Assembly (NCBI RefSeq): GCF_029582805.1
Contig: NZ_JAKKUT010000002.1
Coordinates: 1,140,001-1,204,000, forward strand
Source: Candidatus Synechococcus calcipolaris G9
GTDB taxonomy: Bacteria > Cyanobacteriota > Cyanobacteriia > Thermosynechococcales > Thermosynechococcaceae
Reading direction: 5' to 3'
DNA: 64,000 nt
Below the pieces are notes generated by a model. The model did no database searches and was not told where the DNA came from. It saw only the letters and a list, made by a program, of their open reading frames with translations. A program made the position numbers and the translations under genes. Shown here one piece after another: positions 47,645 to 60,932 of this stretch; positions within the stretch are counted from its first letter, which is position 1; every line of letters starts with the position of its first letter.

Positions 47645-48564
47645 CGTGAGTTCGGGATAAGAGAGGGGCAGAACAGATAGGCTGAAAGTGCTCAATTCTC
47701 ATCCCTCTGCTTGCCCTATGCTTAGTCTAGAAGAGTTATTTTGCTACGTCGATGATTTCTGCCAACAGTTTGAACCGATGTGGCAGCAACAGTTGCTAGG
47801 CAATGGACTCGCTCATCGTAGTCGAAGGCGCAGTTTGTGTCTGAGCGAAATTATGACGATTCTCATCGGCTTCCACCAGTCTTCCTATCGCAATTTCAAA
47901 GCTTACTACACCGAGAAGGTACACGCTCACTGGTGCTCTGCCTTTCCAGGCTTGGTTAGCTACGGGCGTTTTGTTGAGTGAATACCCAGCACCCTGCTGC
48001 CCTTGTGTGCCTATCTCCGTTCTTGCTTCGGCCACTGTACAGGCATCAGTTTTCTTGATGCCACCAGTCTCAAAGTTTGTCACAACCGTCGCATCCCTCA
48101 GCACAAAGTGTTTAAAAACTTGATCTGGTGATCAACGACAAAGGAGAGTTGCTCAACTTCACCTTCACACCAGGTAACACAGATGACCGTACACCTGTCC
48201 CTCAACTGCTGAAACACCTCTTTGGCAAGGTGTTTGCAGACAAGGGCTATATCTCCCAGAAATTGGCAAAATAGTTGATGGAGGCAACGGGGATACAACT
48301 GATCACGAAGCTACGACGCAACATGAAGAATCGTTTGTTGGGATTGAGCGATCGCTTGATGCTGAGAAAACGGGCCATTATCGAGACAGTAATTGATCAG
48401 TTGAAGAACATTTCTCAAATTGAACACTCTCGTCACCGTTCCCCGATCAATTGCTTAGTGAACATCGTCTGTGGGCTAATTGCCTATACTCACCAACCGA
48501 AGAAGCCCTCCATTGCCATTGATCACCATTTGCTCACAGTTGCTTAAACCGAACTCACGTTAAT
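47641..48564 (+). mobile_element. Decayed IS982-like insertion sequence
   Basis: About 924 bp bounded by the inverted repeats TTAACGTGAGTTCGG (left) and CCGAACTCACGTTAA (right). It holds one transposase pseudogene. The left end abuts the futB stop; the right end opens inside a truncated PD-(D/E)XK gene. The size and transposase are those of the IS982 family. A 195-bp deletion derivative lies at 12803-12997. Confidence 0.85.
47718..48547 (+). pseudogene. IS982-family transposase, broken
   Basis: The N-terminus ([18 protein letters not shown]) is intact up to FVE, where a TGA (47979-47981) replaces a Trp codon. The frame then continues (FLDATSLKVC, which carries a DDE Asp) to about 48115. There a deletion of some codons shifts the frame. 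A third segment (VINDKGELLNFTFTPGNTDD) reads on to a TAG at 48272-48274, and the last ([20 protein letters not shown], with the DDE Glu) ends at 48547. At least three disabling changes, so no active transposase. Confidence 0.85.
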
Positions 48565-49206: not shown

Positions 49207-50058
49207 TTAGGACAAAATAAAATAGAACCCCAAATGTCTTCTCACCCCTATGCCTTTACCCTATAGCCTCGACCTCCGTCACAAAGCCTTGCGTGCCATC
49301 GACCAAGGAGAGAAAAAAACACAGGTCTGTCGCCTGTTCAATATCAGTCGCAACACCCTTGATTTGTGGCTCAAGCGTCGTCAGCAGACCGGTAGTGTCG
49401 CCCCAAACACCCACTATCGTCGAGGTCCTGCCCCCAAAGTTAATGACTTAGATGCCTTTGGCACCTTTGCCCAAGAACACGGTCATCTCACCCAACAGCA
49501 AATGGCCGAGCCTACCGCGAGCGCAATGAAGATCGCCGCCAAGCCTTCTTGACGCAACTGGCTCATTATGACCCAGCCGAGATTGTTTATCTCGATGAAG
49601 CTGGAGTGGACAATACCATAGACTATCCTTACGGGTATTGCCATCAGTCTGAACGCTTTCATGCTCTGAGGCTAGGACATCGCACCCAACGCATCAGTAT
49701 GATTGCAGGTTGGTGTGATCGCCAAATACTAGCCCCGATGACCTTTGAGGGATATTGCAACAGTGACCTATTCGAGAACTGGGTAGAGCAGTTTTTAGTG
49801 CCTGAACTGAACGCAGGTCAACTCGTTGTCCTTGACAATGCGAGCTTTCATCAATCGCAGCGGACTCAAGAGTTAATTGAACAGGGTGCATCCAGCCTGT
49901 TATTTTTGCCGCCTTACTCCCCTGACTTGAATAAGATAGAGAAATTTTGGGCACGGTTAAAGCAGTATTTGGGTCAGACCCTGAATCGGTTTGATCTCTT
50001 GTAGGATGCCGTCGATGAAGCTTTCAGGCATATGTCCTAACTATCATTTCATTTGCAA
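49206..50058 (+). mobile_element. Decayed IS630-family insertion sequence
   Basis: About 850 bp. The ends are imperfect inverted repeats (ACAAAATAAAATAG on the left; ATTTCATTTGC region on the right). The transposase inside is broken. It lies between two fragments of the same DUF4351-like relic and so was probably inserted into it. Borders are approximate because the TA duplication cannot be pinned down. Confidence 0.7.
49250..50037 (+). pseudogene. IS630-family transposase, broken
   Basis: The N-terminal helix-turn-helix part (SLDLRHKALRAIDQGEKKTQ, then RNTLDLWLKRR) is intact until QQQMAE at about 49507. A deletion there removes roughly the segment linking it to YRERNEDRRQAF and shifts the frame. 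The DDE part is then open: IVYLDEAGVDNT, LVVLDNASFHQS and FLPPYSPDLNKIEKFWARLK carry the Asp, Asp and Glu. A TAG at about 50002-50004 interrupts the end (FDLL*DAVDEAFRHMS). Not functional. Confidence 0.85.
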
Positions 50059-50155: not shown

Positions 50156-50174
50156 CTTCGGGGAGGGGGCTGTG

Positions 50175-51545
50175 ATGGATGAAGCGTTACTGGAAAATTT
50201 CATTGCCTTAATTTTGACCCATACTGGCATTCATATCCGATCGCAGGATAAATCACTGCTGGCGAAAAAACTCTCCGATCGCAGCCGCGCCCTCTCCTAT
50301 TCCCGCCTTTCTAGCTACTATGCCCTGCTGGCCAATGGGGGCGATCGCGACAGTCAACAGGAATGGAAAGTTCTTGCCTCGGTCATCACCACTGGCGAGA
50401 GCTACTTTTTCCGAGATCAGGGCCAAATTACCCTACTGCAAGAGCGTATTTTGCCGGAACTCATGACTACCCACAGCGAGGATCGGCGGTTAAATATTTT
50501 GAGTGCGGGCTGCTCCAGTGGCGAAGAGGTCTATTCCCTGGCAATTTTGCTGAAGGAACTCATTCCCTACATTCACAACTGGAACATTTCCCTCGTTGGT
50601 CTGGACTTAAATCAGGAGGCCATTGCCAAGGCTAAGGAGGGATTGTACAGCGAGTGGTCTTTTCGGGGGGTAGAACCAGCCCGGCGATCGCACTATTTTC
50701 AACGCACGGCTCAGGGGTGGCAAGTGATCCCGGAACTGCAAAAAATGGTGGAGTTCCGCTGTGCCAACTTAATTCAAGATGGGATTACCTGTTTTGCCCA
50801 TGAATCGGTGGATCTAATCATTTGCCGCAATGTGTTTATCTACTTTGATAGAGATCGCATTAGCCTAGTTCTGAAAAAATTCATTGATCTATTGAAACCC
50901 AAAGGCTATTTATTAACGGGCCACACCGAACTCCAAGGGCAAATCGTCGAACCCTTACAGATACTAAGCTTTCCTGAATCCGTCATTTATCAACACTCCC
51001 CCCATCCCCCGGAAATCTTGCCCGCCCCAACCCCCTCCCAACCGCTGATCCCTGCCAATACATGGGAACGGGCCCAGGATGCCTTTAGCCAGGGAAACTA
51101 TGGGGATGCCATTCGCCTAAGCAAGGACTGGCTAAAACTCAACCCCAAGGACGACCAAACCCTTTCTCTGATCGCCCAAGCTGCGGCCAATCAAGGCAAA
51201 TATGCCGCCGCCATTGACACCTGCCATCAGATACTGGCGATCGCCCCCACCTCTAGTTCAGCCCTCTTTTTACTGGCCCAAATTGCCGAGTCCCAGGGGG
51301 ACATCGATAAAGCAAAGGAATACCTCCGCCGCATTCTCTTCCTTGATCCCAACTCCATTCCCGCCTACCTAGAACTCTTAGAACTCCATGCCAGGGACAG
51401 GGAATCAGGCCAGGCCCAGCGTCTTCTGGAAACAGCAGCGGCCCTATTACAGGAACGCCCAGATACAGACATTATTCCCTACCGCCAAGGCGTAACTGTG
51501 GCTACCCTCCGCACCCACCTAGAACAACTTCTTAAATCACTATGA
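50175..51545 (+). CDS. CheR-type methyltransferase with C-terminal TPR repeats
   Basis: A 456-residue protein (ATG 50175; a GTG lies one codon earlier). The N-terminal helical domain is followed by TGESYFFRDQ (about 72-81) and the SAM-binding LSAGCSSGEEVYS (about 109-121). NVFIYFDRD (about 218) completes the methyltransferase core. CheR adds methyl groups to receptor glutamates. Residues about 290-430 are three or four TPR units (GNYGDAIRLSKDWLKLNPKD; GKYAAAIDTCHQILAIAP), as in WspC-like CheR proteins. First gene of the seven-gene array. A GGAGG site precedes it. Confidence 0.9.
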   Translation: MDEALLENFIALILTHTGIHIRSQDKSLLAKKLSDRSRALSYSRLSSYYALLANGGDRDSQQEWKVLASVITTGESYFFRDQGQITLLQERILPELMTTHSEDRRLNILSAGCSSGEEVYSLAILLKELIPYIHNWNISLVGLDLNQEAIAKAKEGLYSEWSFRGVEPARRSHYFQRTAQGWQVIPELQKMVEFRCANLIQDGITCFAHESVDLIICRNVFIYFDRDRISLVLKKFIDLLKPKGYLLTGHTELQGQIVEPLQILSFPESVIYQHSPHPPEILPAPTPSQPLIPANTWERAQDAFSQGNYGDAIRLSKDWLKLNPKDDQTLSLIAQAAANQGKYAAAIDTCHQILAIAPTSSSALFLLAQIAESQGDIDKAKEYLRRILFLDPNSIPAYLELLELHARDRESGQAQRLLETAAALLQERPDTDIIPYRQGVTVATLRTHLEQLLKSL

Positions 51546-52038
51546 TTGATCCCCCCCATTCTTGCCTGAATATATAACGATTCAGTTAATCTATTCCCCT
51601 CAAATGAGGATAAAAACATTTATGGTTAGCATATTGAAAGCAAATATTATAAATATCATTAAATGTGATCTTTGATACACGATCCCAGCAGATCATCGAG
51701 TAAAGTGTCACCTATGCTGGTACAGTGTCGTCCAAGTTGGTATCGTCAAATATTTTTATTTTTTTATTCGCAGTTGGGGAATTAATGCAACCGGTGTTTT
51801 TCAAGGTGTTCCCTTTGGCATCGATCTTTAGGCTGGGATCATTGCTATTTCGTACACTGATTGCGTTTAATTTGCTAGATTAATCTTTATTAAGATTAGT
51901 TAAGGTTACAAATGAGTTCAAACTAAGATTTTGACATCCATAGACTTTTCTCTATGGTTTGATCGATCTGAATTCCGGGTCACTTTTTCTGTGATCCGAC
52001 CTGTTGAAGTTCATTATTATGATTGCGGGGAATTTTCT
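51546..52038 (+). promoter_or_regulatory. Intergenic region with direct repeat and palindrome
   Basis: About 490 bases between cheR and the PATAN gene. Two adjoining 20-base units (51704-51723 and 51724-51743, both AGTGTC...GGTA) agree at 14 of 20 bases. A palindrome TAATCTT-TATT-AAGATTA sits at 51881-51898. Neither is a known operator to me. It probably contains the promoter of the downstream six genes. Confidence 0.4.
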
Positions 52039-53184
52039 ATGCAAGCCTTTGATCGTGTTCCACAGCCATCAGATCACGAATCCGATGAATTAACGAGCCT
52101 TATTCAAGCCCTTGCTGGCTATCAAGAAAGTGGCTTTTCGGGGGTCATTAAAATCTCCACCAAAATTCCCCATACCCAAAGGCGACTATGCTACTTTCTC
52201 GGATTTCAAGACGGAAATCTCACATTTTCTGAAAATAAAATACCCTCCCCGGAAGAGTTTGTTCAATCCCTAGGGCGATACCTCAAGGTGGGGATCATGG
52301 ATTCCCTAATGCAGTATGCCTCGAATCGCACCACTGACAATCCCTCTGTACGGGAACTATTAGAAGCCATCGTTAGTACCCGTGCCCTCTCCTGGGATGA
52401 TCTGGAAAAAGCAACCATGAGTCGCATTACGGTGATCCTAGAGCGGTTACTGCCCTACTCCTGCGTGACCCACACCGAAGCCGATGTGGAATATGATCTC
52501 TCCTTTGGGGACGATCGCCATGGTATCAGTTACGAAAAAGTGCTTGAGCGGATTAACGAACGGCAAAAATTGTGGAAGCAATATCTACCGATCATTTCCT
52601 CAGTGGAAGGGATTCCCCACCTAAGGGAAGGAGTTTTGCCTAGCGTTAAGCATGAACCCACGGCCCAACATCTCAAGCAGTGGGTCAATGGTAAAAATTC
52701 CATTGCCGATATTGCCGAAGCCCTCCACCAAGATCCCCTCACCCTGGCTCCCTTATACCTGCGCTGGGCCAATGAAGGGTTGATTAGTGTTATTGACGAT
52801 CACCAGCCCCAGACCAGTGGTCAAACCATGCCAGTGGTTCTAACGGTGGATGATAGCCCCATTGTTCAGGCCATGATTCGCCGGGCCCTGTGTGAAAACT
52901 ATGAAGTCATTGGTGCCACCAGCGCCATTGATGCCCTAGGTATCTTAAATAATCGGAACGTGTCTCTGATTTTCTTGGATGTCACTATGCCGGAAATTGA
53001 CGGCCTAGAGTTTTGCCGCACCATTCGTAAAATTGAAAAGTTCAAAGAGATTCCGGTGATCATGCTCACGGCCAAAGATGGCCTCATTGATCGGGCCAAA
53101 GGGCACATGGCCGGAACCAGTCGTTACCTCACCAAACCCGTTGATAAGGAGATGCTTTTGAATACGGTTCAAGAGTTCATCTAA
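52039..53184 (+). CDS. PatA-like PATAN-domain response regulator
   Basis: A 381-residue protein from the ATG at 52039 (a TTG at 51931 would extend it). The N-terminal ~220 residues form a PATAN-type domain (HESDELTSLIQALAGYQESG, GVIKIS, LCYFLGFQDGNLTF). A helical linker follows, then a C-terminal receiver with VDDSPIVQAMI, the phospho-Asp in LIFLDVTMPEIDGLEF, IMLTAKD and YLTKPVDKE. PatA/PixG/PilG-type regulators control pili or cell differentiation in cyanobacteria. Here it is likely the output of the array's CheA. Confidence 0.85.
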   Translation: MQAFDRVPQPSDHESDELTSLIQALAGYQESGFSGVIKISTKIPHTQRRLCYFLGFQDGNLTFSENKIPSPEEFVQSLGRYLKVGIMDSLMQYASNRTTDNPSVRELLEAIVSTRALSWDDLEKATMSRITVILERLLPYSCVTHTEADVEYDLSFGDDRHGISYEKVLERINERQKLWKQYLPIISSVEGIPHLREGVLPSVKHEPTAQHLKQWVNGKNSIADIAEALHQDPLTLAPLYLRWANEGLISVIDDHQPQTSGQTMPVVLTVDDSPIVQAMIRRALCENYEVIGATSAIDALGILNNRNVSLIFLDVTMPEIDGLEFCRTIRKIEKFKEIPVIMLTAKDGLIDRAKGHMAGTSRYLTKPVDKEMLLNTVQEFI

Positions 53185-53231
53185 TTACAACCGTGTAGTT
53201 TGTTATGTAACTTGAGTGTGGTGACGAGGAA

Positions 53232-54245
53232 ATGAATTATTTACGTTTCCGGCTCCAGGGATTGAGCTATGGATTGCCTTTGGACATCGTGAAGGAAGTT
53301 TTTTTTCTACCTGAACTCACGCCCCTTCCCGAAGCCCCCGCCGATATTATTGGAGTCTTGAATTTACGGGGAACCTTGCTACCCGTGATGCACCTAGGCA
53401 AACGATTGGGCCTGGCCAACCCCATTTGTTTGACAACGGATATCGTGATTACCTTGGAATGGCAAGGCCTACGGGTGGGGGTAATTGTTGACACGGTGGA
53501 GGAGGTCATTACCCTTGATCCCCAGCAGATCAATCCTGAACCCGATTATGGCCGCCTCAATCCCCTGGCAACCGCTTTTATGGATGGGATTGCCCAGGTG
53601 GGTGAAAATCTGATCCTTTTAGTGAATCCCGATACCCTGATTCGATCGCCGGAAGATGTAGCCAATCTCACGGACGTGGACATGGAGACCCTGGTGATTC
53701 CTGAGGATTTCTATCAGTTGTATGCCGCCGATATGGATACCCAGGGGCGATCGCTGTTGCAACAACGGAAGGTAGACTTTGCCCAAACTGAGAAGAATAG
53801 CCAAGAGGTGGAGGATCCCCTGATTTTGGCGATCGTCAAGCTGGAACATGAACGGATTGGCATTTCCCTGGAATATATTCGTGAGTTTGTGGACATCTCC
53901 CACTATGTTCCCGTTCCCTGCTGCCCTGAGCATATTGTCGGTAATATGAATCTGCGAGGGGAAATTATGACCCTGATTGATATTCGTCCGACCCTTAACT
54001 TGGCCCAGTCTGCTCAACACCTGCGTAAGGCAGTTGTCATTGAAGTGGATGACATTAGTGCCGCTGTTTTAGTTGAGGATGTGGAAGATGTACTTAAAGT
54101 CACCTATTCTGACCTGCGGTTGTCTCCATTCTTTGGTGAAAACCATCATCGCTTAGGAACAGTGATGCAGGGGGATCAGATAGTCACCCTGTTAAATACA
54201 CGACAACTGTTGCAGGGAAATAGTTTGATGGTTGAGGCGGCGTAA
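53232..54245 (+). CDS. Fused double CheW coupling protein
   Basis: A 337-residue protein with two CheW domains: residues about 1-140 (VLNLRGTLLPVMHLGKRLGL; VGVIVDTVEEVITL) and about 190-330 (NMNLRGEIMTLIDIRPTLNL; AVLVEDVEDVLKV). A polar linker with EVEDPLILAI joins them. CheW couples receptors to CheA. In Wsp-type systems two separate CheW proteins exist; here they are one chain. It lies between PATAN-REC and the receptor, 47 bases after the former. Confidence 0.92.
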   Translation: MNYLRFRLQGLSYGLPLDIVKEVFFLPELTPLPEAPADIIGVLNLRGTLLPVMHLGKRLGLANPICLTTDIVITLEWQGLRVGVIVDTVEEVITLDPQQINPEPDYGRLNPLATAFMDGIAQVGENLILLVNPDTLIRSPEDVANLTDVDMETLVIPEDFYQLYAADMDTQGRSLLQQRKVDFAQTEKNSQEVEDPLILAIVKLEHERIGISLEYIREFVDISHYVPVPCCPEHIVGNMNLRGEIMTLIDIRPTLNLAQSAQHLRKAVVIEVDDISAAVLVEDVEDVLKVTYSDLRLSPFFGENHHRLGTVMQGDQIVTLLNTRQLLQGNSLMVEAA

Positions 54246-54311
54246 CCGGGGGCGATCGCCCTAGGGTTATGGATTAGATTAGTTTAATTTTTTATTTGTG
54301 AGGATGTTTGG

Positions 54312-55655
54312 ATGCGGATTAGATACCAACTGTATTTACTGACCAGTGCCGTCGGCTTTATGGCCATTAGCAGCTTGGGGATTATTCTTTTCAGTCAAAC
54401 CAGTAAATATCCCAAAATCATCAATGAGGCGGGCCTAGTGCGGGGGGGAACCCAGCGGATTGTCAAATTACGTCTCCTCGGCCAAGTCCCTACAGATTTA
54501 ATAACGGCTACAGATGAGCGGATTAATACGTTGATCAATGGTGATCCAGCCCAGGATATTCCCCCAGCAACGGATCCTGAATTTCGCCAGGCAATGCAAA
54601 ATGTGCAACAGCAGTGGGACGCCCTCAAGGTTGAACTCAATCGTCCCCAAATTAACACCGCTGCCATTGCTGAGAGGAGTGAAGAACTTTTTGATGCGAC
54701 AAACAATGCTAACAGTGTAATGGAGAAAATAGCCGGCCGGGAATATCAACGGGTGTTTGTCCTGGAAACCGTGGTCGTTGTTGCCGAATTAATCATTTTG
54801 GTGATTGTTGGTTTTGTGATTCAACGGATTACCAAGGTTCTTTCCGGTATTGCCAACCAAATTGCCAGTGCCTCCACGGAAACCGCCGCCGCCATTGCCG
54901 AGCAGGAAAAGGTGATTGCCCAACAGGCCGCCTCGGTGAATCAAACTACTACCACCATGGAAGAATTGGGGGCCTCATCCCGCCAATCTGCGGAGCAAGC
55001 GGATGCCTCCTCGGCTGGAGCTAAACAGACCATGGAACTTTCCACCTCTGGGCTTCAGGGGGTGCGTCATACTACCGAAGGTATTGATGTCCTCAAAGAT
55101 AACGTCTCGGCGATCGCAGAAAAGATTATGCAACTGAGCGAACAAACCACCCAAATCACTTCGGTGTCGGAACTGGTGGCAGACATTGCCAATCAGACCA
55201 ATATTCTCGCCCTGAATGCCGCCGTGGAAGCCGCCCGGGCCGGGGAGCAGGGTAAGGGCTTCTCCGTCGTTGCCCAGGAAGTACGGAAGCTGGCGGATCA
55301 GAGTAAAAAATCCGCAGAAAAGATTACCGCCCTGATTCGGGAAACCCAGGCCTCCATTAATAGCACCGTCATGGTCACGGACGAAGGAACCAAAACCGCC
55401 GCCGAATGTATTAAATTGGCCCAGTCCACCCGGGAAACCTTTGAAACCATTGCCGATTCCATTAATTCCGTCTTTGTCAACAGTCAACAGATTGCCCTGA
55501 GTTCTAAGCAGCAAGCCGTGGGGGTGCAGCAGGCCGTCTCCGCCATGAATGCTATTAACTTAGGAGCCAGGGAAGCTTCCACCAGTGTGTCCCAGATCAA
55601 AACCGCCACCCAACAACTGCTTGAGTCTGCCCAGACCCTGAAAGAGCGAGTGTAA
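54312..55655 (+). CDS. Methyl-accepting chemotaxis receptor
   Basis: A 447-residue receptor. An N-terminal membrane helix (about 7-30) and a second one (about 148-172) bound a ~115-residue periplasmic domain with [17 protein letters not shown], typical of PilJ/nitrate-sensor-like helical bundles. There is little or no HAMP. The cytoplasmic signalling tip is [20 protein letters not shown] then [20 protein letters not shown], the CheA/CheW-contact hairpin. Probable methylation helices flank it. Its ligand is unknown. Confidence 0.92.
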
Positions 55656-55662
55656 ATGGCCT

Positions 55663-57984
55663 ATGTATATCGAGGACGACGAACTACGGAATCTTTACCA
55701 GGCAGCCAGTCAGGAGCATCTGCACAATATTGAAGCAGGTCTTTTGGTTCTGGAAAAGCAACCGCAGGATCGGGGCAAGCTGGAGGAGCTACTCCGGGAA
55801 ACCCACTCCCTGAAGGGGGACTCCAGAATGCTGGGGGTAACAGACGCCGAATCCTTGACCCATCACATCGAAGAAATTCTCACGGCCGTTCACAATGGCG
55901 AGGCGAGTTTTTCACCCCAGGTATTTGATTGCCTCTACGAAGGCGTAGATGCGATTAAAAAAGTTGCCCAGGAAGCGGTGACGGGAACTCCCTCCGGCGT
56001 TAGTGTCTTCCATGTGTCTGCCCAACTTTTGGCCCTCATTGGTTCCAGCAGTGAGGGGGAAGACCCAGCCCAAATCCCAGATAGAGGAGCGGAAGTTGCC
56101 CCAGATCTAACCCCAGAACCTACCTTGTTTGAGGCTGACCTAGGGGCGATCGCTGATTTTGAACAACTGCTCAGGGATACCACGGCCCAGGAATCGGAAC
56201 CCCGTCTGCCCCTGCCTCCACCCCCAGAGATTCCCTCTCCCCAGGAAATAGTAGAAGAAGAATATCGCTTTGATACGGTGCGAATTGAGGCCACTAAACT
56301 CGATGCCCTCATGCACCACATTGGCGAGTTAAGCGTGACCCAGCAGCGGATTGCCCGCCAGCGGATTGTCATCCATACCCTGAATGAACTTTGGGAAGAG
56401 GCCCAACGCCAAGCCAGCCAAGGGCAACAGTTCTTAGGCAGTGATTCCAGTACGGTTCCCCTGCGCCAAACCTACCACCAGTTACAAAAGCAGCTTGACT
56501 TGATTGGTCAATCCCTACAGCAGTTGGTGGGTAATACCCAGGTGGATGATTCCCGCCTAGAAGTCTTGGCAGATATTCTGGAAACCGATGTTCGCAATCT
56601 TCAGCTTCTGCCCTTTTCCAGTATTTTTAACCTCTTTCCACGCACAGTGCGGGATCTGGCCAAGCAACAGAAGAAACAGGTTGATTTTATTGTGGAAGGA
56701 GCCGACAACTCCGTGGATCGCCGCATCCTAGAGGAAATGAAGGCCCCCCTCACCCACCTGCTACGGAATGCCATTGATCACGGAATTGAATCACCGGAGG
56801 AGCGACTGAGCCAGGGCAAACCAGCGGCAGCCACCTTAATTCTGCGGGGGGCGATCCGGGGCAGTGAAATTGTCATCGAAGTGACGGATGATGGTCGGGG
56901 CTTAGACCTGGAGGCCATTAAGCAAACGGCCATTAAGCGGGGATTACGCACCGCCACCGAACTGGCCATGATGACTCCTAGCCAGATTGAAGCCTTGGTC
57001 TTTATGCCAGGGTTTTCCACCCGCTCCCAGGTGACGGAAATTTCTGGCCGGGGCGTGGGTCTGGATGTGGTACGGGCCAATGTGGAGCGACTCAAGGGAA
57101 CCCTGACGGTGACATCCCGCCCCCAAAATGGCTGTACCTTTCGGGTGACGTTGCGGGGAAATCGGGCCACCATCCCCATTCTTGTTGTCCGCCTGGGGGA
57201 AACCTACTATGGCGTGCCCACGGATGCGGTGGAAACCTCGCTCCTACTCACCACGGATCAAATGATCACCATTGATGGAAGTCCCAGTATTGTCTGGCAG
57301 GGACAGCCCATTGGGGTGAGTTGGTTGGCGGATATTTTGGATCATCCCCACCGCGATCGCCTGCGTCAGTATCCCTGTATGGTGCTGCGCCAAGGGGAGC
57401 ATTATCGGGGCATGATTGTGGACGAGTTAATTGATTGCCAAGATATTCAACTCAAAACCCAGAGTAAACTACTGAAACGGGTTCCCAACCTCCTGGGGGT
57501 GACGATTCTCAGTAGTGGTGAAATTTGCCATATTCTCAATCCCCAGGATCTGATTCAGGTGCCTGGGGCCCACACCTCCCTGGAACGGCTCAGTGCCGAG
57601 GCGATCGCCAAGCCCAATGTCCTACTGGTGGAAGATTCCCTGCCCATTCGTACCCAGTTGCGCCGGATTTTAGAAGCGTCGGGCTATGCGGTGACAACGG
57701 CCGTGGATGGCATGGACGGCTTTCATCAGTTGCGGGCCGGGGAGTTTGATGCGGTGGTCTCGGATGTGGAAATGCCCAACCAATCTGGCATTGAAATGAC
57801 TGAGAAAATTCGCCGCTTAAGTGACTATAATAAGTTGCCGATTATTCTCGTCACCACCTTAGCCGCCGATAGCGATCGCCAACGGGCCATGAATGCCGGG
57901 GCCAGTGCCTACCTGACCAAGGGGGATTTTGATCAGACGTTATTGTTGAATACCTTAAGGAATTTTATTTATGGCGAAAATTAA
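55663..57984 (+). CDS. Hybrid chemotaxis kinase CheA-REC
   Basis: A 773-residue kinase. The Hpt domain has the phospho-His48 in RETHSLKGDSRMLG. A linker rich in Pro/Glu (about 130-200) precedes dimerisation and ATPase domains with LLRNAIDHGIES (about 366), VTDDGRGLDLEA and SGRGVGLDVV. The CheW-like regulatory domain spans about 500-635. A C-terminal receiver (about 645-770) has LLVEDSLPIRTQL, VVSDVEMPNQSGIEM and YLTKGDF. It starts seven bases after the receptor stop. This is the CheA-CheY hybrid plan of Wsp/Pil-type arrays. Confidence 0.94.
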   Translation: MYIEDDELRNLYQAASQEHLHNIEAGLLVLEKQPQDRGKLEELLRETHSLKGDSRMLGVTDAESLTHHIEEILTAVHNGEASFSPQVFDCLYEGVDAIKKVAQEAVTGTPSGVSVFHVSAQLLALIGSSSEGEDPAQIPDRGAEVAPDLTPEPTLFEADLGAIADFEQLLRDTTAQESEPRLPLPPPPEIPSPQEIVEEEYRFDTVRIEATKLDALMHHIGELSVTQQRIARQRIVIHTLNELWEEAQRQASQGQQFLGSDSSTVPLRQTYHQLQKQLDLIGQSLQQLVGNTQVDDSRLEVLADILETDVRNLQLLPFSSIFNLFPRTVRDLAKQQKKQVDFIVEGADNSVDRRILEEMKAPLTHLLRNAIDHGIESPEERLSQGKPAAATLILRGAIRGSEIVIEVTDDGRGLDLEAIKQTAIKRGLRTATELAMMTPSQIEALVFMPGFSTRSQVTEISGRGVGLDVVRANVERLKGTLTVTSRPQNGCTFRVTLRGNRATIPILVVRLGETYYGVPTDAVETSLLLTTDQMITIDGSPSIVWQGQPIGVSWLADILDHPHRDRLRQYPCMVLRQGEHYRGMIVDELIDCQDIQLKTQSKLLKRVPNLLGVTILSSGEICHILNPQDLIQVPGAHTSLERLSAEAIAKPNVLLVEDSLPIRTQLRRILEASGYAVTTAVDGMDGFHQLRAGEFDAVVSDVEMPNQSGIEMTEKIRRLSDYNKLPIILVTTLAADSDRQRAMNAGASAYLTKGDFDQTLLLNTLRNFIYGEN

Positions 57985-58384
57985 AGTAGTTCTCATTGAA
58001 GATTCCGTGGTGGCCCTAGAAATTCTGCAACGGCTGATCAACTCATCAGAGGAAGTGGAAGTCGTAGGTACGGCCCTAGATGGTGCCTCAGGTCTCCAAG
58101 TAATTGAGCAAAATCAGCCGGACGTGATTTGTACCGATCTTCAGATGCCTGGCATGGATGGGCTGGAGTTCACGAAGGAAGTGATGAAACGCTTTCCCCG
58201 GCCGGTTCTGGTCGTTAGCAACGCGGTGCAGCCCAGTGATGTGGATAATATCTATAATTTGATGCAGGCAGGGGCTCTCGACTTCTTTCCCAAGCCCACC
58301 AGTGGCATATCCACGGATTACGAACGGCTCAAGAGTGCCCTTGTCACTAAGATTAAGGTTCTCGCCAGCAAGCGTGTCTCCTAA
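57971..58384 (+). CDS. Stand-alone CheB-type receiver
   Basis: A 137-residue single-domain response regulator. It has the acidic pair LIEDSVVAL, the phospho-Asp in VICTDLQMPGMDGLEF, SNAV in place of the usual T/S switch region, and the Lys in FFPKPTSG. The FPKP motif and flanking residues match the receiver half of the next gene (CheB), not CheY. So it is a duplicate of CheB's receiver without the methylesterase half. Overlaps the CheA stop by 14 bases. Confidence 0.85.
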   Translation: MAKIKVVLIEDSVVALEILQRLINSSEEVEVVGTALDGASGLQVIEQNQPDVICTDLQMPGMDGLEFTKEVMKRFPRPVLVVSNAVQPSDVDNIYNLMQAGALDFFPKPTSGISTDYERLKSALVTKIKVLASKRVS

Positions 58385-58404
58385 GGAACGGCCCTAAGAC
58401 CTCC

Positions 58405-59463
58405 ATGGCTATCCGTGTCTTTCTGGTGGAAGATTCCCCCATTGCCCTGCACATCCTAGAGCAAATTCTGCAAGCCGCCCCCGGTCTGGAGGTGGTGGGA
58501 ACTGCCCAAAATGGCAAAGATGCCCTCCTGCGTATTCCTGAATCCAAGCCCGATGTGATCTGCACCGATCTCTACATGAAGGAGATGGATGGGGTGGAGC
58601 TTACACGTCAGATTATGGCCCGCTATCCCCGCCCCATTTTGGTGATTAGTGTGGCCGTGGGCCAAGGCAACGAGCAAAATGCCTTTCAGTTATTGCAGGC
58701 CGGGGCGATCGATGTTTTTCCAAAACCGGGGACAGGATTGATTGCCGACTACGACCGAGGGCAACTGATTAATAAAATCAAGGTTCTGGCAGGGGTTAAG
58801 GTATTTACGCGGCCCCTGCGGCCAACCCTGGGTACACCCACTAATGGACAATCCTCTGGGCAACCGTCATCGCCCCCAATCAAGTTTCAACAAAATGGAA
58901 AATATACCATTATTGGTATTGGTGCATCCACAGGGGGCCCCCAGGCGATCGCCAAGATTCTGTCCAAACTGCCGGGGAATTTTCCCTTACCCATTCTCTG
59001 TACGCAGCATATTAGTATGGGTTTTCTGGAGGGGCTGGTCTCGTGGATCCGCCAGGAATGTGCCCTAAAAGTGAAAATTGGTGAAACCGGCGAAACACCG
59101 CAACCGGGGGTGGTCTATTTTGCCCCCGATCAATGTAACCTGGAACTGGATCGCCGGGGAAAATTACTCCTGTCTGCTCCCACTGCCTCAGAACGCCACT
59201 GTCCCTCAGTGAATGTGATGTTACGATCCCTTGCCTTAGTCTTTGGCCAGGAAGCCATTGGTATTCTACTGACGGGAATGGGGGATGATGGTGCCGATGG
59301 AATGCGCTGTTTGGCCGCAGCGGGGGGACTCACCATTGCCCAAGATGAAGCCACCTGTATTGTCTATGGGATGCCCAAGGAAGCCATTGCCCTAGGTGCG
59401 GTGCAACATACCTTGGCGATCGATGCCATTGGTGAATCTTTGGTGACATACTGCCGACGCTGA
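58405..59463 (+). CDS. cheB: Protein-glutamate methylesterase CheB
   Basis: A 352-residue protein. The receiver (1-125) has VICTDLYMKEMDGVEL and VFPKPGTG. The methylesterase (about 160-350) has the catalytic Ser in GIGASTGGPQAI (about 173-184), the His in CTQHISMGF, and the Asp in LTGMGDDGADGM. It removes methyl groups from receptors, opposing CheR. With CheR it gives the array a full adaptation cycle, which most cyanobacterial Che-like systems are known to lack. Confidence 0.93.
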   Translation: MAIRVFLVEDSPIALHILEQILQAAPGLEVVGTAQNGKDALLRIPESKPDVICTDLYMKEMDGVELTRQIMARYPRPILVISVAVGQGNEQNAFQLLQAGAIDVFPKPGTGLIADYDRGQLINKIKVLAGVKVFTRPLRPTLGTPTNGQSSGQPSSPPIKFQQNGKYTIIGIGASTGGPQAIAKILSKLPGNFPLPILCTQHISMGFLEGLVSWIRQECALKVKIGETGETPQPGVVYFAPDQCNLELDRRGKLLLSAPTASERHCPSVNVMLRSLALVFGQEAIGILLTGMGDDGADGMRCLAAAGGLTIAQDEATCIVYGMPKEAIALGAVQHTLAIDAIGESLVTYCRR

Positions 59464-59561: not shown

Positions 59562-60932
59562 TTGGTTCTGTCCACACGAGTTGTTATTGTCCGCCACGGC
59601 GAAAGTACATTTAATGCCGAGGGGCGTGTCCAGGGCCACAGTGATGCCTCTGCCCTCAGCGATCGCGGCCGGCAAATGGCCCAACGGGTTGCCCAGGCCC
59701 TTAAGGGGATTGCCTTTGATGCCTTCTATACCAGTCCCCTGCGCCGGGCCCAAGAAACCGCCGCCGAAATTTTTGCCGGCATTGCCAATGGTTCCATTCC
59801 CTCACCCTACCCCCTCAAAACCCTCATCGAAATTTCCCTACCCCAGTGGGAAGATATGTATTTTGAAGAGGTTAAAGAAAAATTTCCTGAGGCCTACCGC
59901 TGTTGGCAAGAGCAACCCCACTTGTTGGCCATGGATATTAAAGACGAGGCCGGCAACGTTACTACCTTTTATCCGGGGCGAGACCTCTTTGAGCGGGCCC
60001 AGCAGGTGTGGCCAACCCTACTAGAGCAGCATTCTGGGCAAACTATTTTAATTGTGGCCCACAGTGGCATTAATCGGGCCCTGATCTGTACCGCCCTAGG
60101 GATGGGTATTGAAGGATATTTACGTTTCCAGCAGGCCAACTGCGGCATTACGGTGCTTAATTTTCCCGGTGCCTGGGGGCAGCCGGCCCAGCTAGAGGCC
60201 CTTAATGTCACCAGTCATTTGGGGAATCCCTTTCCCACACCTCGGTTTAAGGAACAAACCCTGCGAATTTTTTTAGTGCGCCATGGGGAGACCGATTGGA
60301 ATCGTCAGGGTCGGTTTCAAGGTCAAATCGATGTTCCCCTCAATGCCACGGGCCAGGCCCAGGGGGAGCAAGTGGCCGCCTTTCTAAAAGAGGTGTCCTT
60401 CCATCAAGCCATTAGCAGTCCGATGCTGCGGCCGAAGGCGACGGCGGAGGCCATCCTGGCCCATCATCCCCAGGTTCCCCTGAAATTGATACCGGCCTTT
60501 GCAGAAATTAGCCATGGGGACTGGGAAGGAAAGTTTGAACCGGAGGTGGAAGCCCTCTATCCGGGGGAACTTCATCGCTGGCGGCAGACTCCGGCGGTGG
60601 TGCAAATGCCCAATGGCGAAAATCTACGGCAGGTTTGGGAGCGGGCGATCGCCGCGTGGGAGCAATTAATTAACGAATTACGGGAATCGCCTTCCAGCCC
60701 CCAGCAGTTGCCCCATCAGGTGTTAGTGGTTGCCCATGATGCCATTAATAAATTGATTTTGTGTCAAGTGGCGGGGTTAGGGATTGAGCAGTTCTGGCAT
60801 TTTAAGCAGGGCAATGGCGGTGTGAGTATCATTGACTATCCCCTCCAGGGCGGTCATCCCCGCTTACAAGCCATGAATATTACCACCCATTTAGGCGGAG
60901 TTTTGGACCCCACGGCCGCTGGAGCATTGTAG
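59562..60932 (+). CDS. Tandem histidine-phosphatase (phosphoglycerate-mutase-like) protein
   Basis: A 456-residue protein with two branch-2-type phosphatase domains. Each has the catalytic RHG: VRHGESTFNAEGRVQGH (about 11-27) and VRHGETDWNRQGRFQGQ (about 241-257), with later His in AHSGINRALI and AHDAINKLIL. The first N-terminal codon is TTG at 59562, only a base or two after GAGGA; a CTG at 59568 is better spaced, so the start is uncertain. Cyanobacteria have such fused proteins; the substrate is unknown. Confidence 0.85.
   Translation: MVLSTRVVIVRHGESTFNAEGRVQGHSDASALSDRGRQMAQRVAQALKGIAFDAFYTSPLRRAQETAAEIFAGIANGSIPSPYPLKTLIEISLPQWEDMYFEEVKEKFPEAYRCWQEQPHLLAMDIKDEAGNVTTFYPGRDLFERAQQVWPTLLEQHSGQTILIVAHSGINRALICTALGMGIEGYLRFQQANCGITVLNFPGAWGQPAQLEALNVTSHLGNPFPTPRFKEQTLRIFLVRHGETDWNRQGRFQGQIDVPLNATGQAQGEQVAAFLKEVSFHQAISSPMLRPKATAEAILAHHPQVPLKLIPAFAEISHGDWEGKFEPEVEALYPGELHRWRQTPAVVQMPNGENLRQVWERAIAAWEQLINELRESPSSPQQLPHQVLVVAHDAINKLILCQVAGLGIEQFWHFKQGNGGVSIIDYPLQGGHPRLQAMNITTHLGGVLDPTAAGAL

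Follow-up and report, generated by a model that had tools for sequence, protein, structure and literature searches.

A chemosensory operon with CheR and CheB from a tandem-CheW lineage of cyanobacteria in Candidatus Synechococcus calcipolaris G9

Organization of the Chemosensory Operon

The window analyzed here is a 64,000-nucleotide stretch of the genome of Candidatus Synechococcus calcipolaris G9 (contig NZ_JAKKUT010000002.1, positions 1,140,001 to 1,204,000). Between positions 50175 and 59463 of the window, the open reading frame list and Pfam/NCBIfam searches identified seven intact plus-strand genes encoding CheR-TPR, PATAN-REC, CheW-CheW, a receptor, CheA-REC, a lone receiver, and REC-CheB (Table 1). 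An earlier note on this DNA had described the same seven co-oriented genes as a Wsp-like array with complete CheR/CheB adaptation. The gene content and domains were confirmed at the coordinates given in that note, with matches far beyond chance.

The cheR frame opens with GTG at 50172, directly followed by the ATG at 50175. The open frame of PATAN-REC runs from TTG at 51931 to 53184; because its homologues begin at the internal ATG at 52039, the protein is probably 381 amino acids long. The gaps from PATAN-REC to CheW-CheW, to the receptor, and to cheA were 47, 66, and 7 bp, respectively. The cheA and lone receiver genes overlapped by 14 nt, and a gap of 20 bp separated the latter from cheB. 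cheR was set apart from PATAN-REC by about 0.5 kb; promoter- and terminator-like sites, sought in this gap as signs of a shared promoter, were not more common than in shuffled sequences, and a search for repeats there found none. The Pfam scan found no P2 domain in CheA.

Table 1: Features of the operon, with positions in the window.
Feature	Position	Strand	Description and evidence
cheR-TPR	50175..51545	+	Methyltransferase for receptor glutamates, TPR repeats at the C terminus; PF01739 3e-49 plus TPR
PATAN-REC response regulator	52039..53184	+	REC 4e-24; PATAN/DUF4388 via homologues and profile-profile comparison
CheW-CheW	53232..54245	+	Two fused coupling domains; two PF01584 stretches
Methyl-accepting chemotaxis receptor	54312..55655	+	Two transmembrane helices, PilJ/NIT-type extracytoplasmic sensor; PF00015 4e-39
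P-box-like motif	54420..54458	+	Receptor residues 37-49 (13 residues), where the sensor domain begins; kept by most receptors of the type
Canonical methylation motif	54951..54977	+	T-T-M-E-E-L-G-A-S, Glu217/Glu218; E-E invariant in close relatives with CheR and CheB
Second, C-terminal methylation-like motif	55500..55523	+	S-S-K-Q-Q-A-V-G, Gln400/401; pattern match and conservation
cheA-REC	55663..57984	+	Hpt, H-kinase_dim, HATPase, CheW, REC; Pfam, trees, AU tests
Lone CheB-type receiver	57971..58384	+	137 amino acids, without methylesterase; NCBIfam CheB models 1e-32
REC-CheB	58405..59463	+	Methylesterase/deamidase; PF01339 2.7e-58

Phylogeny of CheA and Distribution of the Lineage

About 60 chemosensory loci were taken from the phylum; another 80, mostly from other phyla, came from scanning named genomes and served as outgroups. 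The CheA kinase cores were compared in a quick tree of 132 rows and a careful tree of 56 rows. In the 56-row tree, the window CheA fell into a clade of 19 rows comprising photosynthetic cyanobacteria and one deltaproteobacterial metagenome-assembled genome (support 100/99), and the sister of this clade was formed by Melainabacteria/Gastranaerophilales (97/96). The Wsp clade, home to the REC-GGDEF-bearing wsp loci of Pseudomonas and Paraburkholderia, was separate (100/100). The three other CheAs of the G9 genome, whose clusters contain PATAN-REC, CheY, CheW, and a receptor without CheR/CheB, formed a clade of their own (99/96). The union of the window lineage with these pix/pil/tax-type CheAs was rejected by the approximately unbiased (AU) test (p = 0.0003), and its union with Wsp was disfavoured (p = 0.03). 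In the comparison proposed in the earlier note, both trees place the kinase outside the Wsp clade and outside the clade of the pix/pil/tax-type CheAs of this genome. The term Wsp-like was abandoned; the operon also has no GGDEF regulator, and its CheWs are fused in one protein. CheR with TPR and CheA-REC are what remains of the Wsp plan claimed for it; the two CheW modules form a single protein of a different lineage.

A second cyanobacterial CheR/CheB family (L211-L217) sits inside the Wsp clade. Its regulators include fusions of REC with a class III nucleotide cyclase (L211, L215) or with a histidine kinase (L217). The deltaproteobacterial locus in the window clade (L102, RIFOXYD12_FULL_50_9) shows the same order of CheR-TPR, CheW-CheW, receptor, CheA-REC, and CheB, followed by REC-histidine kinase and REC-HD regulators; either transfer or mis-binning may account for it.

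Close homologues of the window CheA (at least 430 bits) were present in 39 of the 386 sampled genomes of the phylum, covering 19 families by a manual count over the rows listed, and Melainabacterial CheAs scored below 350 bits. Several close relatives lack the operon, and a related copy occurs in another family (G014). Among the 46 loci of the lineage, several of which are cut by contig ends, an intact CheW-CheW fusion was present in 33, CheB in 36, and CheR in 27. A lone CheW (119 amino acids) occurred in just one locus, at a fragment edge, and the fusion was seen in none of the outgroup loci inspected. Judged from these loci, the fused tandem CheW is a mark of this CheA lineage, and the window operon has both the CheA of the clade and the fusion.

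Adaptation Enzymes and Receptor

When aligned with solved CheR structures (1AF7/5XLX), the operon CheR retained the S-adenosylmethionine-binding and C-R-N-V-F-I-Y-F regions. The CheB motifs G-A-S-T-G-G, T-Q-H, and G-M-G-D-D-G, containing the catalytic Ser, His, and Asp, aligned with CheB 1A2O. The whole genome encodes four CheAs and exactly one CheR and one CheB, both of which lie inside the operon, bearing out the claim of a complete pair. In the relatives G014 and G402, the sole CheR is located elsewhere in the genome, away from the array. Among the Thermosynechococcus-like genomes (g2), CheR and CheB were jointly present or jointly absent, save for one degenerate operon remnant in G406 (L234). 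There CheB is truncated and the lone receiver altered, the rest of the operon is gone, and the genome has no CheR.

Across the phylum, the CheB methylesterase domain was found in 123 of the 386 genomes. CheB was rejected as a marker of this array in cyanobacteria because many of the matches either were CheB-CheR-kinase fusions or had CheB but no receiver. Together with the 39 genomes containing close CheA homologues, these counts confine the rarity of CheR/CheB suggested earlier to the experimentally studied strains.

The receptor has no C-terminal CheR-binding pentapeptide. Its T-T-M-E-E-L-G-A-S motif is located 83 residues ahead of the hairpin tip and fits the canonical methylation pattern, and Glu217 and Glu218 were invariant in ten receptors from relatives with CheR and CheB. 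In three g143 genomes without array-type CheR/CheB (G386, G389, and G391; loci L228-L230), the motif reads I-E-G-L and the pair is E-G; G389 has no CheR or CheB of any kind, and G386 and G391 have essentially only CheB-CheR fusions. G390, from the same genus, retains CheR and CheB and has T-I-E-E-L-G-A-S. In G070, a 99% complete genome with neither CheR nor CheB anywhere, the motif is V-D-Q-L and the pair is D-Q (L240). The pair is mostly E-K in Melainabacterial receptors and mostly D-E, with exceptions, in more distant members of the lineage that bear CheR/CheB. Because the methylation glutamates are lost where CheR and CheB are lost, we infer that adaptation acts on the operon receptor, with the joint loss providing independent evidence. 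Catalytically intact CheR and CheB, combined with a methylatable receptor position whose loss accompanies theirs, identify the operon at the sequence level as a methylation-adapting array.

The sensor region of the receptor was predicted to be a four-helix bundle (single-sequence AlphaFold2 model, mean predicted local distance difference test score of 79). The top PDB match of the model was the ligand-binding domain of the nitrate receptor McpN (E 1.5e-4, 26% identity), followed by NarQ and PilJ. A phmmer search of the sensor against the PDB gave a weak PilJ match alone (E 0.005), and Pfam at relaxed cut-offs gave no direct match. We take the 13-residue motif listed in Table 1 to resemble the P-box of NarX/NarQ, as a lead only. 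A candidate ligand is nitrate or another small anion of that kind; other receptors of the tandem-CheW lineage carry different sensors.

The Lone CheB-Type Receiver

The best NCBIfam models for the lone receiver were those of CheB. In the receiver tree, it clustered with CheB receivers and was split from the CheY of the tax clusters with 100/100 support, indicating descent from CheB, and its phospho-Asp was retained in the alignment with 1A2O. Across eleven loci, the lone receiver showed identities of 72-92% and was the most conserved part of the operon, whereas the receivers of CheA, PATAN-REC, and CheB showed 63-76%, 56-86%, and 51-77%, respectively. In loci without CheB, the best match of the CheB-receiver comparison is the lone receiver itself. 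It persists where array-type CheR/CheB have been lost (L228-L230 and L240; genomes G386, G389, G391, and G070). We infer that it is a CheB-derived substitute for CheY. The combination of lone receiver and PATAN-REC mirrors the PixG/PixH pair of Synechocystis, two response regulators that act antagonistically on pili (review PMC12288463).

PATAN-REC and the Probable Output

Pfam did not call PATAN on the window protein itself, even at relaxed cut-offs. Its homologues matched DUF4388, in L237 above the curated cut-off (E = 1.1e-5) and in L224 below it (9e-4), and the regulators in the corresponding position of the tax-type clusters of this genome all matched DUF4388, a family that we take to correspond to PATAN. 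In a profile comparison with these tax-type regulators, the N-terminal domain gave an hhalign probability of 88 (E 3e-6). Homologues and profile comparison thus support the identification of PATAN, in agreement with the earlier note. A PATAN-type REC protein was found in 22 of the 46 lineage loci.

The genome encodes PilB with an MshEN domain and PilT, and FliG was not found in it, consistent with the earlier statement that flagellar genes are missing. In Synechocystis, PATAN regulators bind PilB1/PilC, the pilus motor (PMC12288463, PMC9090330). Linkage of the operon to pilB was not relied on, as the genes between them include that for DXP synthase and other unrelated ones. Among the outputs named earlier (pili, exopolysaccharide, or development), pili are probable given PATAN-REC, PilB/PilT, and the missing FliG, and a Wsp-type cyclic di-GMP/exopolysaccharide output is disfavoured.

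Genes Surrounding the Operon

The gene immediately upstream of cheR encodes a DDE_3 transposase and is split over two frames (49250-50004); a second remnant, also transposase-like, is located at 47688-48547. The downstream gene (59562-60932) encodes two fused histidine-phosphatase (phosphoglycerate mutase-like) domains and is not thought to be part of the array. In four other loci (L238, L206, L196, and L182), genes for GAF/PAS histidine kinases are directly upstream of, or divergent from, cheR and may represent an extra input. A gene for an AAA/R3H-domain protein (PF25516, PF01424, PF19568) adjoins the array in two distant groups: it is directly upstream of cheR in L202-L204 and convergent to cheB, with LdpA beside it, in L224, L225, and L233 (scanned in L225; the ORF sizes are the same in L224 and L233).

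Proposed Function and Alternatives

We propose, with a probability of about 0.6, that the operon encodes an array of a distinct tandem-CheW cyanobacterial lineage and that this array, adapting by methylation, governs behaviour on surfaces, its most likely target being the type IV pilus motor. The membrane receptor with its PilJ/NIT-type sensor would be coupled through CheW-CheW to CheA-REC. CheA would phosphorylate PATAN-REC, which by analogy with PixG/PixE would act on PilB/PilC, and also the lone CheB-type receiver, a second response regulator in the place of CheY. CheR-TPR and phospho-CheB would set the methylation of Glu217/218 and thereby provide memory.

Several points weigh against this proposal. 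The joint loss amounts to two events in photosynthetic cyanobacteria (g143 and G070) plus Melainabacteria, and three of the genomes compared are only 87-98% complete. In the g143 receptors, 14 of 127 positions that are invariant elsewhere have changed, so the loss of the site was not the sole change. PATAN-REC is absent from about half of the lineage loci, partly owing to contig edges, and a pilus output may therefore not be general; pilB lies 22 kb from the operon. Union with Wsp was disfavoured at no more than p = 0.03 in the AU test. Finally, the evidence as a whole is computational.

A Wsp-type (alternative cellular function, ACF) pathway with cyclic di-GMP and exopolysaccharide as output would explain why CheR-TPR and CheA-REC are common to Wsp and the operon. 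Clusters with CheR-TPR, including those of cyanobacteria, have been assigned to the ACF class (PMC3447774), and the sister Melainabacterial systems carry REC-GGDEF. We nevertheless regard this pathway as unlikely: the CheA lies outside the Wsp clade, the operon has fused CheWs and no GGDEF gene, and the Wsp clade is occupied by the different cyanobacterial family mentioned above, with its cyclase or histidine kinase regulators. Still less probable is a locus that is accessory or decaying, does little, and owes its spread to mobile elements. The adjacent DDE_3 transposase gene and the patchy occurrence of the operon, missing in several close relatives and present in G014, are what such a locus might show; however, none of the seven frames is interrupted, the catalytic motifs are retained, strong constraint acts on the receiver and the receptor signalling domain, and the lineage covers 19 families.

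A narrower alternative concerns the lone receiver, which might be a phosphate sink or competitor that tunes CheB phosphorylation, leaving PATAN-REC as the sole output. Its descent from the CheB receiver, its position next to cheB, its single-domain form, and its intact phospho-site are in keeping with this role, which we consider somewhat doubtful but clearly more credible than the two alternatives above. Since this domain, the most conserved of the operon, persists in G386, G389, G391, and G070 without array-type CheB, tuning CheB cannot be its only role.

Extending the proposal of a pilus-controlling, methylation-adapting array, a tentative scenario to which we give a little less than an even chance is that the tandem-CheW chassis predates the split between photosynthetic cyanobacteria and Melainabacteria and that its outputs were swapped (diguanylate cyclase versus PATAN). 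A duplicated CheB without its methylesterase would then have become CheY, and pilus steering would have gained methylation memory, hence temporal sensing. If true, the lone receiver would represent a second origin of CheY, this time out of CheB, and the contrast between GGDEF and PATAN shows that a single array chassis can serve two outputs.

In Synechocystis, the sensing of light direction is believed to be spatial. This organism lacks CheR and CheB, and this absence has been used to argue for directional control other than temporal sensing (PMC4758948). The picture of cyanobacterial taxis has thus been drawn from strains without the enzymes that give arrays short-term memory. The lineage occurs in some Thermosynechococcus-like genomes and is absent in close relatives, which makes temporal memory in surface behaviour genetically testable in related thermophiles.

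Comparison with Known Systems

CheR-TPR in cyanobacteria was reported in 2012 and assigned to ACF pathways (PMC3447774). Thermosynechococcus NK55 and S. lividus have been mentioned, without analysis, as having additional chemosensory sets, in a passage that does not discuss CheR/CheB or the lineage (PMC7005997). We found no functional study of the tandem-CheW lineage in the open-access literature searched. The earlier note would have given up its claim to an undescribed system if the CheA had fallen inside the Pix/Pil clades and related cyanobacteria routinely carried the locus with a published function; only the routine occurrence of the locus was found. The complete adaptation array belongs to a widespread, functionally unstudied cyanobacterial lineage and does not duplicate the Wsp biofilm system.

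Like Pseudomonas Wsp, a member of the ACF class, the operon has CheR-TPR, CheA-REC, CheB, and two CheW modules; Wsp differs in its separate CheWs (WspB and WspD), its REC-GGDEF output (WspR), and its CheA clade (L127, L124). The CheR-TPR and multidomain regulator of the operon would fit the ACF class of Wuichet and Zhulin as it is described in PMC3447774. The Synechocystis tax1/pix (PixG, PixH, PixI, PixJ, and PixL) and tax3/pil systems likewise cluster PATAN-REC, a single-domain receiver, CheW, a receptor, and CheA-REC in a host with type IV pili, but they are without CheR/CheB (PMC4758948). The tax-type clusters of the G9 genome differ from the operon in having a CheA of another clade, a single CheW, and a CheY-type single-domain receiver; the operon pairs PATAN-REC with a receiver of the CheB type and so does not conform to the tax type. 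The Melainabacteria/Gastranaerophilales arrays (L105, L106, L120, and L208-L210) share the CheW-CheW fusion and CheA-REC and have the sister CheA clade, but they differ in their short receptor, in their REC-GGDEF output, with the motif G-G-E-E-I/L/M, and in having no CheR/CheB at the locus; the fusion, the REC-GGDEF regulator, and the missing enzymes recur in L121 and L164.

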